Shown here in pieces: positions 1,337-19,805 of a DNA stretch of 40,040 bases (position 1 is the first letter of the stretch; each line of letters begins with the position of its first letter). The notes below the pieces were generated by a model that was given only the letters and a program-made list of their open reading frames with translations, did no database searches and was not told the origin of the DNA. A program made the translations under genes and the position numbers. Source of the DNA: a virus; IMG/VR virus record IMGVR_UViG_3300037502_002103, positions 1 to 40,040 of that record; one strand, 5' to 3'.

Positions 1337-1635
1337 TAAAGCATCAGGAGACACATCCTTCGTTGGATGTGGAGGGTTGTTTCGGTTGCAAGATTGCTTG
1401 GGTGGGTGTCGCACCATCGGCTGCACCTACTCGTGGTGGTGGGGCGAGGGTTGCTCAGATCGCTGCGAAGGACAAGGTGTTGGAGAAGGATTTGGATGCG
1501 TATAAGCGTTTGCGTGATGAGGGGCTACAGCCTCATAACGTGGATGGGTCAGCGAAAATTGAGCAGATCGCTGAAACCAAGTTTCAGGTTGAGACAGGCA
1601 TTATCAACCCGACTCTTGATGCAATCGTCAAGTAA
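1333..1635 (+). CDS. Small phage protein with a CFGCK motif, unknown function
   Basis: 100 residues from GTG, overlapping the previous stop by four bases. The N-terminus has a His-Pro followed by Gly-Cys-Phe-Gly-Cys-Lys; two cysteines in CxxC spacing could bind a metal with the nearby His or form a disulfide. The rest is helical and charged. I associate a similar short Cys protein with tail regions of other environmental phages, but cannot assign a role. The next gene starts on its stop codon (TAATG), tying it to the glycosyltransferase genes. Confidence 0.65.
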   Translation: MIKHQETHPSLDVEGCFGCKIAWVGVAPSAAPTRGGGARVAQIAAKDKVLEKDLDAYKRLRDEGLQPHNVDGSAKIEQIAETKFQVETGIINPTLDAIVK

Positions 1636-2336
1636 TGCTTCTTACTATTTACATCCCTACTTATAAGCGTGTCGAGCTGGCTGACTGTTTGCAGAGCATT
1701 GTCCCGCAGTTGACGGATCAAGTTGAGGTGATCGTCAGCGACAACGATGGGTCGGCAAAAGAGATCGTGTCCCGTTTCCCGAAGGTGACATACACGCGCC
1801 GACATTTCAATATTGAGGGGGATCCGAATGTGGTGCGCGGTTTGGTGTGCGGTACCGGTGAATATGTTTGGGTGTTTGGGGATGACGACACAATGCTTCC
1901 AGGCACCATCAAACAGTTGTTGCCGATGCTCAACGGGGTGGATCGGGTGATTCACTGGTCGCCAAACTCGATGGAGGTCAATCCAGGGTTTTTCGGGTCG
2001 ATGCCTGGCTACATCAAGACTCTGGAGGACAAGTCAATCCTTGTTGCTTCAACGTTGATTACGGCGAACGTGTGGCGTAGAGCAGCGATGGATGTTGCGT
2101 CTGGCTTACGAATGGTTGACACCAAGTACCCGCTGTTTTGGGCTGGGTTGAATACAAAGACCGTCAAGGTAATGCCAGTTCCAACCATCACCGTTGGTTA
2201 TGTCCATACGAATGTGTTCGGGTTCTTCAACAAGGTTATTGACCAGTATTTGAAGGCGCTGATGGATGCCAACGGTTTGCCACACATCGATCTGTTTGAT
2301 GCGTTGCGTTGGAACTTTGTGAACGTATCCAAATGA
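1635..2336 (+). CDS. Glycosyltransferase family 2 (GT-A fold)
   Basis: 233 residues. Seen: the nucleotide-sugar-binding start IPTYKR at residues 7-12, SDNDGS at 35-40, and a metal-binding GDDD at 81-84 in the DxD position of the GT2 family. Length is near the minimal catalytic domain; no membrane segment is seen. Such enzymes transfer a sugar from a nucleotide-activated donor. Its place inside the tail gene block, with a second glycosyltransferase starting on its stop (ATGA), suggests the pair acts together on a virion protein, the host surface or the DNA. The target cannot be read from the sequence. Confidence 0.85.
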   Translation: MLLTIYIPTYKRVELADCLQSIVPQLTDQVEVIVSDNDGSAKEIVSRFPKVTYTRRHFNIEGDPNVVRGLVCGTGEYVWVFGDDDTMLPGTIKQLLPMLNGVDRVIHWSPNSMEVNPGFFGSMPGYIKTLEDKSILVASTLITANVWRRAAMDVASGLRMVDTKYPLFWAGLNTKTVKVMPVPTITVGYVHTNVFGFFNKVIDQYLKALMDANGLPHIDLFDALRWNFVNVSK

Positions 2337-3421
2337 ATACCCAGCATTGGCACGGCTTTACAGATGGCAGGTTCGGTTACGGCTCGATGCTGAATGGGTT
2401 TCTGAACCATGTGCCTGATGGGGTGACATTGGATGAGATGTCGAGCGTGTCGGTCCATATGGGTGTCCCGTTCTCTTGTAAGGGTTGGTATGAGAAGCAG
2501 CATCGTGTTTGTTTTACGATGTGGGAAACATCGGAGGTGCCGATCAGGTTTGTGCGTTGGCTCGCCCAATACGACCAGATCCTTGTGCCTTGTAAGCACA
2601 ATGTTGAGACTTTCAGTAAGCATCATCCGAATGTGAACTATGTGCCGTTGGGGGTGGATCGCACTATTTGGATGCCGCAGCAACGGGCAGAGAACAAAGT
2701 GTTCAAGTTTATGGCTGGCGGCTCCCTGTGGGAACGCAAAGGTATTGATGCTGTAGTGAAAGCGTTTCTGAAATTGGATTTGCCCGACGCTGAACTGCAT
2801 CTGAAGATGGCTCCCCATGCGTCCGATGTGCCGCAGGATATTCGTGACCCGCGTATCATCTTCCACCGAAATTGGATGACTATGAGCGAGCAGGTGGCAT
2901 TCTTCAATTCTGCTGACTGTTGGGTTGCTCCTGCCCGTGGCGAGGGTTTCGGGTTGATCCCGTTGCAGGCGATTGCGTGTGGTGTCCCAACGATTGTGAG
3001 CGCTTCGTCTGGGCAGGCACAGTTTGCGCATCTTGCCAGCTCGATAGTGAAGTCCACACCGAAACCGTCACCTCATGGCGGGAACTGGGATGAGCCTGAT
3101 CTGAATGATCTGGTGCGTTTGATGCGTCACCATTATGAGAATCGTTCAGCGTTGAGGGTGGATGCCCGTGAACGTGCCGTGTTGACTGACGAGTTCTCGT
3201 GGGAGAAGGCAGCGCAACGGCTGGTTGAGGTGGTGCCGAAAGGTAAGAAACTGCCAGCGTCAGCGAAATGGACTTCTCCGAAACCTGTAGTCCCAGCCCA
3301 GGTCAAGAGGGCAACCACGGTCGAGATCAACGGGAAAGCACAACGCTTTGTACCTGGGGTACAGTATGAGGTTGAAGAAAACGTGCAAGACATCCTTTAC
3401 GCAGCAGGAGCATTGGTATGA
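2333..3421 (+). CDS. Glycosyltransferase family 4 (GT-B fold) with C-terminal extension
   Basis: 362 residues from the ATG that overlaps the previous stop (an upstream TTG at 2309 is less likely). Seen: the GT-B C-lobe motif SLWERKGID at about 131-139 and the donor-site segment GEGFGLIPLQA at about 203-213. The first Glu of the usual E-x7-E pair is present (E204) but the second position is Gln (Q212), which may alter activity or specificity. Residues from about 310 onward form a Pro/Lys linker and a short domain ending near the C-terminus in an ING...PG..YEV-like pattern that looks like a phage structural module rather than part of the enzyme. It could tether the enzyme to the virion. Confidence 0.85.
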   Translation: MNTQHWHGFTDGRFGYGSMLNGFLNHVPDGVTLDEMSSVSVHMGVPFSCKGWYEKQHRVCFTMWETSEVPIRFVRWLAQYDQILVPCKHNVETFSKHHPNVNYVPLGVDRTIWMPQQRAENKVFKFMAGGSLWERKGIDAVVKAFLKLDLPDAELHLKMAPHASDVPQDIRDPRIIFHRNWMTMSEQVAFFNSADCWVAPARGEGFGLIPLQAIACGVPTIVSASSGQAQFAHLASSIVKSTPKPSPHGGNWDEPDLNDLVRLMRHHYENRSALRVDARERAVLTDEFSWEKAAQRLVEVVPKGKKLPASAKWTSPKPVVPAQVKRATTVEINGKAQRFVPGVQYEVEENVQDILYAAGALV

Positions 3422-8742: not shown

Positions 8743-9087
8743 ATGGCGCATTACGCTTTTCTCGACGAGAACAACATTGTGACCGAAGTGATTACTGGTC
8801 GCAACGAAGATGAAGTGGTTGACGGTATCTCCGATTGGGAGAAATGGTACGGAGATTTCCGTGGTCAGAAGTGTGTGCGAACTTCATATAACCACAACAT
8901 CCGCAAACAATACGCTGGCATCGGATTCACCTATGACCCTGTTGCCGATGTGTTTGTTGCCCCACAACCATTCCCATCGTGGACACTGGATGCAAACCAT
9001 GATTGGCGGCCACCTACACCAAAACCAGAGGGACGTTTCGTTTGGAATGAGGATGCCCTGGCGTGGGTCGAAGAAGTCGCTGGCTAG
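8743..9087 (+). CDS. Conserved small phage protein of the MAHYAFLDENNIV type
   Basis: 114 residues. The start MAHYAFLDENNIVTEVI, a central WYGDFRGQKCVRTSYN and the segment YAGIGFTYDPVADVF are hallmarks of a family frequent in cyanophages and other aquatic phages, usually beside structural genes. No function is established that I know of. Two bases separate it from the glycine-rich gene. Overlapped at its end by the start of the PA14 gene. Confidence 0.75.
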   Translation: MAHYAFLDENNIVTEVITGRNEDEVVDGISDWEKWYGDFRGQKCVRTSYNHNIRKQYAGIGFTYDPVADVFVAPQPFPSWTLDANHDWRPPTPKPEGRFVWNEDALAWVEEVAG

Positions 9088-10562
9088 TTTTTCTTCCCGT
9101 TGCTTTCCTCGCTTTGCTGCCACAGCAGGCGAACGCTGAACCCGAACTAGGACTCAACGCGGTCGGCTATCTGATTGACCAGATCCCACCGGAACGCTCA
9201 GATACCATCTATCCAACCTGCGGATCTGAGGTAGAGAACAACATCAACCGTAACTTCAACGGTGAACCATTCCAAGATTGCGGCTGGGATTTCTTCATGG
9301 TCCACTACACAGGGTTCATCAATTTGCCTGAGCATGAAACGATTGAGTTCATGGTGGCAGCTGATGACGGTGGCACGGTCAGTATCGCTGGGCAGGAGTT
9401 CGGTACTTGGGATTTGAAGGGTTGCTCGTGGTCGAGCACCATAACGCTGTCCGTTATGCCAGGTTTGTATCCGTTGGATGGCTGGTTCTTTGAGGCTGGT
9501 GGCGGTACTTGCTATATGCTCGCTTGGAAGATTGACGACGCATATTGGGAGATCGTTCCAGAATGGGCATTTACAACAGCATCCACCCCTGTGACGACGA
9601 CCTCTACTTCTACTGTCCCACCCGAGACTGTCCCTGTCACGGACCCGCCTACTACCACGACGCTTCAGGAAACCTCGACGACCGAGGAACCGACGACTAG
9701 TAGTTCTTCAACTCAGCCCACACTGCCAGCCACAACAACCCTGCCACCAGCAGAAGAACAAACGCAGTCGCCCCCCACAGGAACATCAACGTCCACCACA
9801 ACACCGTCAACATCTACTCCTCCTTCAACTGTCGCTGAACCATCCACCACAGTAACAACTGAACCGGAAACAACAACCAGTTCATCTACCGTTGATACGT
9901 CGCCACCAGCCACGTCCCCCACACCACAAGAGGTAGCTCCACCGCCAGTAGAAGCGCCTGCGCCCGCGACGACGGTGCAAGAAGAATTGCCACAGGAAGA
10001 ACCACAGCCCCCAGTAACAGACCCAGAAGTTCCAGAAACCCAAACATCGGTGGACACGCTACCCCCGTTTGATGATGGTGTGGTGGAGGATCCACAGGAA
10101 CCAGCCGTAGACGCACCCATCAAAGATGCCCCCACAATCGACGCAGAGCCTCCTGTAAGCTCCGTAGACGAGAGCGAACCCCCTGTCAGCACTATTGATA
10201 CCCCTGAAACGCTCCTAGAGGCTCTGGATGCGTCCTCCGAACCGACCCCTGCGCAGGCCGCCCAGCTCGCCACCAACCCACAGGTGCTTGCAGTAGCAAG
10301 CGTAGAGCAGGCTGAAGCCATCTTCGAGGCGCTGAATGTTAGCGAATTGGATAACACTCAGATCGCCGCCCTGATTGAAGCGGTACAGGATGCACCCGCC
10401 GAAGTCCGTGAAGCGTTCGAGGACACCATTGACATTTTCGGTGAAGGCTTAGACGACTATGTGCCCCTCGGATCCAACATCCCAGTCGGCACCAGACGCA
10501 CCCTAATCGCCGTAACCGCAGGAATAACGCTCGCAGCAGCAGGTACTAGAATACGGCGCTGA
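9063..10562 (+). CDS. Exported PA14-like protein with mucin-like stalk and C-terminal anchor
   Basis: 499 residues from GTG. The GTG at 9063 is chosen because it gives a full signal peptide: Arg-rich start, hydrophobic core LVFLPVAFLALLP, cleavage after ANA (about residue 25). Residues about 50-175 resemble a PA14/GLEYA sugar-binding domain (an ADDGGTVSIAG segment, a GWFFEAGGGTCYMLAW segment, several Cys). Residues about 178-370 are almost only Thr, Ser, Pro, Glu and Val, a mucin-like stalk. A helical Ala/Glu-rich domain follows, and the end is a short hydrophobic stretch (TLIAVTAGITLAAAG) with Arg behind it, like a membrane anchor without LPxTG. Unusual for a phage: it looks made for display on the host envelope. 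It sits directly before the lysis genes. It could also be a virion adhesin. Confidence 0.65.
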   Translation: MGRRSRWLVFLPVAFLALLPQQANAEPELGLNAVGYLIDQIPPERSDTIYPTCGSEVENNINRNFNGEPFQDCGWDFFMVHYTGFINLPEHETIEFMVAADDGGTVSIAGQEFGTWDLKGCSWSSTITLSVMPGLYPLDGWFFEAGGGTCYMLAWKIDDAYWEIVPEWAFTTASTPVTTTSTSTVPPETVPVTDPPTTTTLQETSTTEEPTTSSSSTQPTLPATTTLPPAEEQTQSPPTGTSTSTTTPSTSTPPSTVAEPSTTVTTEPETTTSSSTVDTSPPATSPTPQEVAPPPVEAPAPATTVQEELPQEEPQPPVTDPEVPETQTSVDTLPPFDDGVVEDPQEPAVDAPIKDAPTIDAEPPVSSVDESEPPVSTIDTPETLLEALDASSEPTPAQAAQLATNPQVLAVASVEQAEAIFEALNVSELDNTQIAALIEAVQDAPAEVREAFEDTIDIFGEGLDDYVPLGSNIPVGTRRTLIAVTAGITLAAAGTRIRR

Positions 10563-10723
10563 TGCGTAAATTCTTCAACTTCCTGAGCGACAACTCATGG
10601 ACCTACGCCGGTACCGGCATGGTGCTCATCACCCTGTCTGGGCCTACTCTCCGTTCAGCCCTGTGGATAACTGGTGTAACATTGATCCTGCACTCAGCGT
10701 TATCCCTCTCCCAGAAAGACTGA
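10562..10723 (+). CDS. Small two-segment membrane protein (holin candidate)
   Basis: 53 residues, starting on the stop of the previous gene (TGATG). Two hydrophobic stretches, about residues 15-30 and 32-50, separated by Pro/Arg; short charged ends. No family recognised. One base separates its stop from the next holin-like gene, and the endolysin follows, so a role in lysis timing is plausible. Confidence 0.6.
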   Translation: MRKFFNFLSDNSWTYAGTGMVLITLSGPTLRSALWITGVTLILHSALSLSQKD

Positions 10724-10724
10724 A

Positions 10725-10979
10725 ATGGACAAGCTCAAGAACATCATCTTCCGTATCTTCGCCCTGTTCGGCTCCTCGGCTTTGGCTGCGGTTGCTGGTG
10801 GCGCAATCATCGGTGTTGAACTGTGGAAGTCCGCTGCCCTTGCTGGCGTGATGGCCTGTGCGCAGGTCGTTGAGAAGCTTCTCCGTTACAGCGTGGATGG
10901 CACGTTGACGAAGGAAGAAATCGAAGCCGCGTTCTCTGGCGCTGGTGCACCAAAGAAGAAGGAAGAAGCGGCTGAATAA
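10725..10979 (+). CDS. Putative holin
   Basis: 84 residues. Short basic N-terminus, hydrophobic segment about residues 8-32 with Ala/Gly small-residue pattern, second hydrophobic segment about 34-52 and a highly charged C-terminus ending in KKKEEAAE. Topology and position just before the M15 peptidase match small class II-type holins of actinophages. Holins permeabilise the membrane to let the lysin reach the wall. Assignment is by topology and context. Confidence 0.65.
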   Translation: MDKLKNIIFRIFALFGSSALAAVAGGAIIGVELWKSAALAGVMACAQVVEKLLRYSVDGTLTKEEIEAAFSGAGAPKKKEEAAE

Positions 10980-11539
10980 TGGCGAAGGTCGACATCGCCA
11001 AACTGCCGATCATCAAAGTCAAACTGTGCTCACACCTCAAAGGGGTCGAGCCAGGTGAATTGGATCCGAGCCTGCTTCGCAAGATCGAAGGCAAAGGGGT
11101 GCTGCATCATTGTGCGGCTGACGCATATGAGGCGATGGACGCTGCCGCTAACGCAGAAGGAATTGACCTCAGCCCGACTAGCCCAGCGGACACATATCGC
11201 TCACTTGCGGTTCAGGAATACGGATTCTTCCAGCGATACACCGACAACCCGAAGCCAGCCCTGATGAAGCAGAAGCCACGCATCTACAAAGGCAAAGCGT
11301 GGTATCTGAAGAAGGGGATGGCACAACTCGCGGTCCCTGGCACGAGCCAACACAACTACGGCATCGCAATCGATATTGCTAACGCTTCGGGTGCACGACT
11401 GGAATGGCTCGCGAAGAACGCGACCTCGTTCGGTTTCTCGTGGGAAGTACTCCCGTCAGAGCCGTGGCATCTGCGTTACGTTGCAGGCGACGATGTGCCT
11501 GAACGGGTGAAGGCTTGGAAGGAATCAAAGGGAGCTTGA
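10979..11539 (+). CDS. Endolysin: M15-family D-Ala-D-Ala carboxypeptidase/endopeptidase
   Basis: 186 residues, starting on the holin stop (TAATG). Seen: the zinc motif SQHNYGIAID (His125, Asp132 in this numbering) and the EPWH motif (catalytic Glu161, zinc His164) of the VanY/M15B family; a YRS segment at about 73-75 also fits. The enzyme cleaves D-Ala-containing peptide bonds of peptidoglycan stems. No signal peptide and no separate wall-binding domain is seen, so it needs the holin for access. Complete catalytic set, so probably active. Confidence 0.9.
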   Translation: MAKVDIAKLPIIKVKLCSHLKGVEPGELDPSLLRKIEGKGVLHHCAADAYEAMDAAANAEGIDLSPTSPADTYRSLAVQEYGFFQRYTDNPKPALMKQKPRIYKGKAWYLKKGMAQLAVPGTSQHNYGIAIDIANASGARLEWLAKNATSFGFSWEVLPSEPWHLRYVAGDDVPERVKAWKESKGA

Positions 11540-11540
11540 T

Positions 11541-11753
11541 GTGGACGCTGGGTGGGCTGTCTTTCTTAGTGCCGTTGTTGCTGGTGCTTTTTCTGTCATA
11601 GTCACCCTCATCCAGAAGTTCAAGAAGGAGAACGCCTCAGACCATGAGGTTGTGATGGGGATGCTGAAGATGGTTTACAAGAAGCAGGGCAGCGTAGAAA
11701 CCAAGATAGATAAGGTTTCTGAGAGGTTGACGGACCACATCGAGAACCACTAG
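11541..11753 (+). CDS. Small membrane protein with coiled coil (lysis-associated)
   Basis: 70 residues from GTG, preceded by GGGAG. One N-terminal membrane segment (about residues 5-24), then a basic stretch and an amphipathic helical tail ending in DHIENH. The pattern is like the single-segment membrane proteins that follow lysins in actinophages (DUF2746-like, my recollection). It might be a second holin, an anti-holin or a spanin-like helper. Confidence 0.65.
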   Translation: MDAGWAVFLSAVVAGAFSVIVTLIQKFKKENASDHEVVMGMLKMVYKKQGSVETKIDKVSERLTDHIENH

Positions 11754-17496: not shown

Positions 17497-17771
17497 TCCT
17501 CGCGGAGATGGATCCCCTATACGACAACGACACCAGTTTCTTCACTGACGCAAACTGCAAAGGTATGCCAGCTGACAAGTTCTTTATTGAGCCACGCACA
17601 CCCCAACAGCACATCCTGATCGCTGAAGCCAAAAAGATCTGCGGTCTGTGCCCCGTACGGAAACGCTGTCTAGAGTTCGCACTAAACAATCACATCCATC
17701 ACGGCATTTGGGGTGGGTACACTACGAGACAACGGAGAGGAATACGGCGTGACCGACGAGATCGAGTTTGA
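17493..17771 (+). CDS. WhiB-family iron-sulfur transcription regulator
   Basis: 92 residues from the ATG overlapping the previous stop (ATGA). Four Cys in WhiB order: Cys22, then Cys50-x2-Cys53-x5-Cys59, binding a [4Fe-4S] cluster, followed by the GIWGG turn (71-75) and a basic RQRRGIRRDRR tail for DNA contact. Wbl proteins act with the actinobacterial primary sigma factor. Phage copies (e.g. WhiBTM4) are known to repress host whiB2 and affect septation and superinfection. The encoded protein has all key residues, so is probably functional. Strong evidence for an actinobacterial host. Confidence 0.93.
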   Translation: MILAEMDPLYDNDTSFFTDANCKGMPADKFFIEPRTPQQHILIAEAKKICGLCPVRKRCLEFALNNHIHHGIWGGYTTRQRRGIRRDRRDRV

Positions 17772-17982: not shown

Positions 17983-18327
17983 ATGACACCAGCGGAAATA
18001 GATCTCTTTGTGGACCGCCTCTGCTCATTCTGGCCGACCACGAACATCGCACGAAACACGTTGAAGAACGGGTGGAAACACTCCGAAATCATCATCGACG
18101 CAACCAGCGACCACGGCAAACAAGTGCTCGCAGACTGCAAACCGTTACCGAAGTTCCCCGACCTGAACGCTATCGAAGCGATGTTCCGCAAAGTGATGAA
18201 CCGTCAACTCGCAGAGATCGGGTGCGAAAAGTGCGGCAACACCGGCTTCATCGAAGGCACACCAATCCAACAACTCGGTTTCACCTATCGGACATCCCGA
18301 TACTGCACGTGCAGGAGAACACAATGA
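17983..18327 (+). CDS. Small zinc-ribbon-like protein, unknown
   Basis: 114 residues with a very good AGGAGGGG site. N-terminal helical part (LCSFWPTTNIARNTLKNGW), C-terminal CEKCGNTGF ... YCTCRR, four Cys in two pairs that could form a zinc ribbon like that in phage replisome-organiser or loader proteins. With no helicase or primase here, it is one of few candidates for a replication helper, but that is inference. Its stop overlaps the methyltransferase start (ATGA). Confidence 0.6.
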   Translation: MTPAEIDLFVDRLCSFWPTTNIARNTLKNGWKHSEIIIDATSDHGKQVLADCKPLPKFPDLNAIEAMFRKVMNRQLAEIGCEKCGNTGFIEGTPIQQLGFTYRTSRYCTCRRTQ

Positions 18328-19805
18328 AACCAACATTCGGAAGTCTTTTTGCTGGAGTCGGTGGCTTTGACATGGGCATGGAGCAGGCTGGCTGGGAGTG
18401 CAAATTCCAAGTCGAATGGGACAAACACTGCCAACACATCCTCAACAAACACTGGCCTGACATCCCCAAATGGGGTGATGTATCCACAGTAAGTGGCACA
18501 GAGATCCCACCTGTGGACTGCATCATCTTCGGCTCACCATGCCAAGACCTCTCCGTAGCAGGCAAACGAGCAGGTCTACAAGGGGAACGCTCAGGATTAT
18601 TTTACGAAGCAGTACGAATCATAAAGGAGATGCGTCATGTCACAAATGGAACTTTTCCCCGATGGGCAATCTGGGAGAACGTCGCCGGAGCCTTGTCCTC
18701 CAACAACGGACGGGATTTTGCAGCAGTCATCAGTGAAATGGCTGAAGCAGGGGCGGTTCTCCAAGAATACGCTCTCTTGGATGCGCAATACTTCGGAATA
18801 CCCCAGCGACGAAGGCGCGTGTTCCTCGTCGCTTGCTTCGATCCTGCAATCGCCCGCAACTGTCCAGACCCGCTACTACCTGTCAGCGAAAGCTTGCGAG
18901 GGAATACTGCGAAGGGCAAACCGAAGAGGCAAGTTGCTTCCAGCGAGACTTCAGCAGGCTTTGGAAGCAGCGGTGTCGAACCGTTCGTGAAATCGCGTCG
19001 CGCACAGTCCGCTTCCGATGATGAAACATGGGTAGAAGGACAAGTAAACCCAACCCTCAACTCGTTCGACATGGGGGACACACGCTCAACCACCGCCATC
19101 GTCACCAACGAAGTCGTCAAAGACCCCGTAGGCACACTCCAAGCAAGAGTCGCAGCAACCAACCACGAATCAATCCGTGACGGTCACGCCATCATCACCG
19201 AAACCCACCTTCTTGACGGGACACGAGTAAACGATGTGCGCATCTACGAGCCACCCGTCCAAACCTTGCAAGCACGAATGGGCACTGGAGGCAACAATGT
19301 TCCCATGCTCGCGTTTGACACCCAGTTCGGCAGCAACGCCAATGTGTTTGAAGACCGGTCACCAACGCTGAAAGCCAGCCAACAGTCACCCTCGGTCGCA
19401 TACCCAATCGATGCCCGTAACGCTCTCCGTGACCCAGAAAAATATGATGCCCAAAATCGTCAAGGATTGGGTATCGGAGCTGACGGCGACCCGATGGCAA
19501 CACTCACATCAGCCCATGTGAACGCTGTCGCATACGACGAATACAACGACAGCATCAACGAAACCCATCATGCGCTACGAGCAGGAACCAAACAATCCAC
19601 AGGCGTACTAGAACCAACAATGGCTGTACGCAGACTCACACCCCTTGAATGTGAACGTTTGATGGGATGGCCCGACGACCACACCCGATGGAAAGCAGAC
19701 GGAACCGAACAAGCAGACACGCACCGTTACAAACAGTGCGGCAACGGGGTCGCATCACCAGTCGCACAATGGATCGCGACACACATCCTGAAAGCGCACC
19801 GATGA
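18324..19805 (+). CDS. DNA (cytosine-5) methyltransferase
   Basis: 493 residues from the ATG overlapping the previous stop; the frame is open further upstream but that part lies over the previous gene. Seen in order: motif I FAGVGGFDMG (about 9-18), motif IV GSPCQDLS with catalytic Cys73, motif VI ENV (118-120), motif VIII QRRRRVFLVA (161-170), a long variable target-recognition region (about 175-435), motif IX RRLTPLECERLMGWP and motif X QCGNGVASPVAQWI. All catalytic motifs intact. No restriction partner is visible, so it is an orphan enzyme, probably protecting phage DNA from host nucleases. Positions 18637-18990 also encode a second protein in another frame. Confidence 0.93.
   Translation: MKPTFGSLFAGVGGFDMGMEQAGWECKFQVEWDKHCQHILNKHWPDIPKWGDVSTVSGTEIPPVDCIIFGSPCQDLSVAGKRAGLQGERSGLFYEAVRIIKEMRHVTNGTFPRWAIWENVAGALSSNNGRDFAAVISEMAEAGAVLQEYALLDAQYFGIPQRRRRVFLVACFDPAIARNCPDPLLPVSESLRGNTAKGKPKRQVASSETSAGFGSSGVEPFVKSRRAQSASDDETWVEGQVNPTLNSFDMGDTRSTTAIVTNEVVKDPVGTLQARVAATNHESIRDGHAIITETHLLDGTRVNDVRIYEPPVQTLQARMGTGGNNVPMLAFDTQFGSNANVFEDRSPTLKASQQSPSVAYPIDARNALRDPEKYDAQNRQGLGIGADGDPMATLTSAHVNAVAYDEYNDSINETHHALRAGTKQSTGVLEPTMAVRRLTPLECERLMGWPDDHTRWKADGTEQADTHRYKQCGNGVASPVAQWIATHILKAHR
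18637..18990 (+). CDS. Overlapping gene nested inside the methyltransferase gene
   Basis: 117 residues in a different forward frame. Own ribosome site AAGGAGA six bases before the ATG. The end reads YYLSAKACEGILRRANRRGK then a basic helical stretch with LQQALEAA; the middle has Ser/Trp-rich segments and SSSLASIL. I recognise the YYLS-x-KAC-x-GILRRA-x-RRGK signature as a recurrent phage protein found beside or overlapping cytosine methyltransferase genes. The methyltransferase frame here also carries conserved motifs (ENV, QRRRRVFLVA), so both frames appear to be real. Function unknown; an association with the methyltransferase is likely. Confidence 0.75.
   Translation: MSQMELFPDGQSGRTSPEPCPPTTDGILQQSSVKWLKQGRFSKNTLSWMRNTSEYPSDEGACSSSLASILQSPATVQTRYYLSAKACEGILRRANRRGKLLPARLQQALEAAVSNRS

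Follow-up and report, generated by a model that had tools for sequence, protein, structure and literature searches.

Why would a phage carry, close to its lysis genes, a gene for a protein built like an exported cell-surface adhesin? This question is raised by an open reading frame (ORF) at positions 9063-10562 (+ strand, GTG start, 499 aa) of a 40,040-nucleotide stretch of viral DNA, IMG/VR record IMGVR_UViG_3300037502_002103, hereafter referred to as the window. A sequence-only reading had described the product as a PA14 protein with a mucin-like stalk and a membrane anchor, and the ORF itself stands exactly as first delimited. The source phage is a WhiB-bearing actinophage, a virus of aquatic actinobacteria. 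The window contains a WhiB transcription-factor gene (17544-17738), and since WhiB is a mark of actinophages (PMC10202952), an actinobacterial host is indicated. The sole annotated relative, the actinomycete phage DSL-LC01, originated from lake water. Terminase, portal and tail genes identify a tailed phage, and together with the lack of an integrase among the window genes checked they make a lytic lifestyle likely. Elsewhere in the window, two genes for glycosyltransferases, one of GT2 and one of GT4 type (1635-3421), lie upstream of the tail-fibre genes, and their products might modify virions or the Thr/Ser stalk with sugars. A 577-aa ORF (18072-19805) matches C5 cytosine DNA methylases in two stretches and is unusually long for this type.

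Layout of the 499-aa protein

The protein comprises, in order, a signal peptide, a PA14 head, a Thr/Ser/Pro stalk, a helical domain, a juxtamembrane segment and a membrane helix, with the following features:

9063-9137, + strand: signal peptide, residues 1-25 (VGRRSRWLVFLPVAFLALLPQQANA), from hydropathy and AxA site, kept in relatives
9138-9590, + strand: PA14 lectin-type head, residues 26-176, from profile match, AlphaFold model and Z scores
9363-9371, + strand: Asp101-Asp102-Gly103, corresponding to the DcisD calcium/sugar site of PA14 lectins and unchanged in all 42 close heads
9492-9503, + strand: Glu144-Ala-Gly-Gly147, counterpart of ligand loop L11 by alignment
9591-10202, + strand: Thr/Ser/Pro/Glu-rich stalk, about residues 177-380, from composition and dN/dS; relaxed and length-variable
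10203-10427, + strand: helical membrane-proximal domain, about residues 381-455 (~75), six helices predicted, conserved
10458-10502, + strand: juxtamembrane motif YVPLGSNIPVGTRR(T), nearly invariant across the family
10485-10550, + strand: C-terminal membrane helix, about residues 475-496 (22 predicted), with Arg-rich end RIRR

The N-terminus (VGRRSRWLVFLPVAFLALLPQQANA, followed by E) combines a basic n-region, a hydrophobic core whose Kyte-Doolittle hydropathy reaches 2.9 over 12 residues, and a cleavage site of the AxA type (ANA/E). By a heuristic count, which is not a SignalP prediction, 158 of 162 non-redundant relatives also begin with a hydrophobic core preceded by K/R, and the AxA site is present in 138.

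For the head, the single 499-aa sequence gives a weak match to the Pfam PA14 family (PF07691; E 0.0043, below the cut-off), and this model alone is also sub-threshold for one relative (L128, 7.9e-5). A head profile drawn from 47 relatives (A5) matches the solved PA14 domains 6qe7 (RsgI3, E 3.7e-22), 6qdi (1.3e-19) and 6m8m (5e-4). The AlphaFold model (pLDDT 92.8) adopts the PA14 beta-sandwich fold, with Z scores of 18.5 to RsgI3, 16.4 to MpPA14, 15.7 to MhPA14, about 14 to Flo1/Flo5 and about 13 to Epa1; superpositions with Z of 16-18.5 cover 137-150 residues at an rmsd of 2.1-2.6. In PA14 lectins, two consecutive aspartates hold a calcium that contacts the sugar, with assistance from loop L11 (PMC8092209). 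The Asp101-Asp102 pair provides the counterpart of the former, and in the putative L11 loop E144 and G147 are invariant among the 42 close heads, while position 145 varies (A/W/N/H/Y/S). Because the placement of L11 rests on profile alignment, residue 145 as a specificity position is put forward as a suggestion only. From these features we infer that the head is a calcium-dependent PA14 lectin that binds sugars.

The stalk extends over ~200 residues, and residues 171-345 are devoid of Lys and Arg. Its top 150-aa window is 66% T/S/P, compared with 41% in the runner-up among window ORFs of at least 200 aa. Its Thr codons are mixed (ACA 17, ACG 14, ACC 11, ACT 9), and the mixture of Thr, Ser and Pro codons rules out a DNA-repeat origin. 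Measured against ten relatives, the head and C-terminus mostly give a dN/dS of ~0.05-0.15, which places both ends under purifying selection, and the stalk gives 0.25-0.7. The stalk thus drifts in sequence and length like a spacer while both ends of the protein are selected. The selection and codon data likewise rule out a frame or composition artefact for the ORF.

Between stalk and membrane lies a domain of ~75 residues that the sequence-only reading had passed over. Its AlphaFold model has a pLDDT of ~96 across the core, and a Foldseek search returned no PDB match at E<=1e-3. In a second structural comparison the best Z was 6.3; matches to the N-domains of FliG and MgtE (3.6-4.6) are uninformative because the domain is a helical bundle. 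Confident BFVD matches are confined to uncultured phage proteins, some of them annotated as PA14 or fibronectin III. In the juxtamembrane motif that follows, V and R are invariant and Y/P/G/S nearly so across 65 aligned sequences. The predicted membrane helix is short, with Arg flanking both sides. Sortase anchoring was considered and rejected: LPXTG is absent, the motif YVPxGS..PVxxRR occupies this region instead, and 41 members extend past the helix into a fused partner. GPI attachment does not apply either, the protein being that of a bacterial virus with a predicted transmembrane helix and an Arg-rich end. All elements of the surface-adhesin layout originally proposed (signal peptide, sugar-binding-like PA14 head, mucin-like stalk and hydrophobic C-terminal anchor) are therefore supported.

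A modular family and its membrane partner

Stalk proteins of this kind are not confined to the window phage but form a large modular family that has its own partner protein. The C-terminal domain is encoded in at least 554 IMG/VR stretches, and no PA14-head ORF whose 3' end is intact lacks it. The heads carried on this same anchor include PA14, an unassigned head of 130 aa that is second commonest (44 sequences), L-type lectins (PF18483, E 6e-43 and 2e-40), SUEL galactose/rhamnose lectins (PF02140, E 6e-9 and 1.5e-7), a beta-helix and further domains. Such varied heads on a constant C-terminal module indicate that the head is a replaceable module, and the recognisable ones appear from their sequences to be mostly sugar binders. 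For the second head type, a PDB profile search was empty and no known lectin was matched. An NCBIfam search returned no matches. Versions with several lectin domains exceed 1,000 aa. In some large versions (L247:5776-5947, L219 and L241), acidic helical repeats precede the anchor domain and give weak, sub-cutoff matches to the Pfam family MgtE_N.

The sequence-only reading had proposed a search for host homologues. In a non-exhaustive pattern scan of 84,980 species genomes, the anchor domain was detected in a single genome, on a contig that is itself phage, and a search of the species genomes for the full-length protein found none; a host origin was accordingly rejected. The contig in question (L151, CALKUW010000343.1) is a 6.9-kb phage contig with the cassette, located in a metagenome-assembled genome called Flavobacteriales, probably through a binning error. 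The C-terminal domain is thus essentially phage-only. In INPHARED, DSL-LC01 is the sole member, so this collection under-samples the group.

Downstream of the stalk gene, the following genes are found:

10562-10723, + strand: two-helix membrane partner, 53 aa, with TLSG motif (phrog_29041); its start codon overlaps the stalk-gene stop codon (TGATG)
10725-10979, + strand: small membrane protein, 84 aa (phrog_26427), putatively holin-like
10979-11539, + strand: VanY-type D-Ala-D-Ala carboxypeptidase (PF02557, E 2e-15), likely endolysin
11541-11753, + strand: protein of 70 aa, hydrophobic helix at its N-terminus and a charged tail (phrog_32850)

The 53-aa partner, which had likewise gone unremarked, matches phrog_29041 (E 1.7e-30), a family whose function is blank in PHROG; it matches no recognised holin or antiholin. 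Across 192 distinct loci, it lies directly after the stalk gene in 147, and 41 encode it as a fused C-terminal extension of the stalk protein; at three of the remaining four the contig ends too close, and at one an HNH gene intervenes. The partner is consequently present in all 189 loci having sequence beyond the stalk gene (147 adjacent, 41 fused and one HNH-separated), which are related rather than independent events and span phages from 40 kb to above 100 kb. In the fused versions, which include DSL-LC01 and other large phages, a Gly/Ser/acidic linker joins the partner. The inserted HNH-type gene (L096:5262-5770) is homing-endonuclease-like, and the partner starts just behind it. Fusion and near-universal adjacency argue that the stalk protein and its partner function jointly.

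Linkage to the lysis genes is looser. The proposed position ahead of a holin and a lysin is borne out in the window, where small membrane proteins and then the VanY gene follow. In the family, the 84-aa membrane gene occurs within 2.5 kb of the stalk gene at 120 of the 128 loci with a separate partner and at 30 of the 40 with a fused one, leaving 18 of 168 assessable loci without it nearby. DSL-LC01 has its fused stalk gene outside the lysis cassette, at a distance from the endolysin and on the opposite strand. Lysis is therefore the context of the gene and not necessarily its function. The PHROG family of the 84-aa protein is labelled "nuclease", a label that looks wrong, as the members here are 84-86-aa membrane-type proteins of the lysis region. 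The VanY lysin also matches a tape-measure family (phrog_16823, E 4e-49), indicating that the same peptidase domain occurs within some tape-measure proteins.

Upstream of the stalk gene are tail-fibre-type genes, and these are exchanged. Of 62 relatives that share the head, 2 have a recognisable fn3 fibre gene next to it and 7 have the fibre gene of 250 aa, whereas the downstream 84-aa gene is found in 67 of 69. The head is up to 95% identical in relatives in which the tail-fibre gene has been replaced.

Comparison with known adhesins and surface proteins

Stalked PA14 adhesins are already known from yeast, and PA14 lectins from bacterial adhesins. The yeast flocculins Flo1/Flo5 and the Candida glabrata Epa proteins share with the phage protein a signal peptide, an N-terminal PA14 lectin with an Asp-Asp calcium site (head fold Z 13-14), a long Thr/Ser-rich stalk and C-terminal membrane attachment; this likeness is one of functional layout, with homology claimed for the head only. 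They differ in being eukaryotic and GPI-anchored, whereas the phage protein has a transmembrane helix after a phage-only helical domain, is paired with a two-helix protein and has heads interchangeable with unrelated lectins. The closest sugar-binding bacterial PA14 folds are those of the RTX adhesins MpPA14 (Marinomonas primoryensis) and MhPA14 (Marinobacter), whose DcisD site and L11 loop have counterparts in the phage head. These adhesins are giant, type I-secreted proteins of Gram-negative bacteria with no comparable signal peptide, stalk or anchor. The best match of the head in both sequence and fold is to RsgI3-type anti-sigma factors of Clostridium, membrane proteins with an extracellular PA14 domain. 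RsgI3 is a single-pass sensor whose PA14 domain is C-terminal and whose anti-sigma domain lies inside the cell; the phage protein has no anti-sigma domain.

Among phage proteins, the DSL-LC01 hypothetical protein WJZ48438.1 (Actinomycetia phage) contains the anchor domain with the partner fused at its end and has no function annotation; its heads differ from that of the window phage. Phage superinfection-exclusion membrane proteins and lipoproteins may share an outcome, namely a phage-altered surface of the infected cell. To our knowledge, these are small and have neither lectin head nor stalk. Neither phage-borne proteins of this kind, nor the constant anchor domain, nor the two-helix partner was described in the open-access literature searched, in agreement with the initial view that no such system was on record.

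Location and possible roles

The conserved export signal and membrane helix, the constant membrane partner and the independence from tail fibres favour the infected-cell surface, not the virion, as the location of the protein. To the sequence-only reading it did not look like a virion part, and this receives indirect support from the conserved export signal and anchor and from a head kept despite tail-fibre replacement. Were the head a receptor-binding part of the virion, it should track shifts in host range; in fact it changes little. That the product is an accessory fibre or receptor-binding protein, whose hydrophobic ends would assist assembly instead of export, is consequently highly improbable, although the gene stands immediately after tail-fibre-type genes and PA14 and lectin domains are also found in tail proteins. 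Such a role would fit poorly with a signal peptide and membrane helix conserved at opposite ends, with tail fibres that exchange independently of the head, with a two-helix membrane partner and with a tailed phage (terminase, portal) that has no membrane to hold the protein; a PHROG search of the 499-aa protein gave no match to any family, tail proteins included.

Given the flocculin-type layout, adhesion in trans is the first choice, and we regard a phage-encoded, membrane-anchored, flocculin-like surface lectin acting mainly in this way as somewhat probable. Starting from the computed architecture, PA14 fold, calcium-site residues, purifying selection, head swapping and partner pairing, a course for export, surface location, timing, sugar binding and benefit can be proposed. 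The host Sec pathway would export the stalk protein and its signal peptide would be removed, after which the C-terminal helix and the 53-aa partner would keep it in the membrane of the infected actinobacterial cell, and the stalk would raise the calcium-dependent PA14 head through the cell wall to bind glycans. Late in infection, the cell would become sticky to neighbours or glycan-bearing particles, as might its remains, so that progeny might be released amid fresh hosts. The one pointer to late expression is that the gene lies between those for tail and lysis, and the DSL-LC01 gene is placed elsewhere.

All structural evidence for adhesion in trans is shared by its main rival, receptor masking or superinfection exclusion, in which the lectin would bind its own host's glycans in cis and hide the phage receptor, keeping progeny and competitors from attaching to the dying cell and to its debris. 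The surface location would be the same, the strong conservation of the head fits a constant host glycan, and the gene adjoins late genes. Nevertheless, the long variable stalk and the multi-lectin versions suggest outward reach, the head stays unchanged where tail fibres vary, and the receptor-masking proteins known to us are small lipoproteins or membrane proteins, which together make masking unlikely. The boldest of the readings is a lysis-timing sensor analogous to T4 lysis inhibition, where the lectin would sense extracellular phage or glycan and the partner would relay the signal to the holin-like genes. Translational coupling and natural fusion to the two-helix protein, the frequent proximity of the 84-aa gene and the unusually conserved juxtamembrane motif are in its favour, but it is rendered improbable by the placement of the DSL-LC01 gene, by the loci without a nearby 84-aa gene and by a partner that is no recognised holin or antiholin. 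The slightest chance is given to an adhesin acting after lysis only, with membrane fragments sticking debris or virions to particles and no role on the living cell: a lectin head with a membrane anchor could well decorate such fragments, yet the dedicated membrane partner and its fusion would be left unexplained.

Given the shared anchor, the choice of heads and the near-constant partner, these viruses probably coat infected cells with sticky lectins. Whether this amounts to a widespread phage-specific display system of uncultured actinophages, with a constant module (helical domain, membrane helix and partner) and swappable lectins that reprogram the stickiness of the dying host, is in our judgement evenly balanced. 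If lytic phages lectin-coat their hosts before lysis, the aggregation, sinking, grazing and re-infection of abundant planktonic actinobacteria would be altered, and phage encounter rates in dilute water would be affected. The constant anchor with swappable heads offers an experimental handle, one membrane module for many lectins, and provides a function to seek for phrog_29041 and for hundreds of proteins now annotated as "hypothetical".
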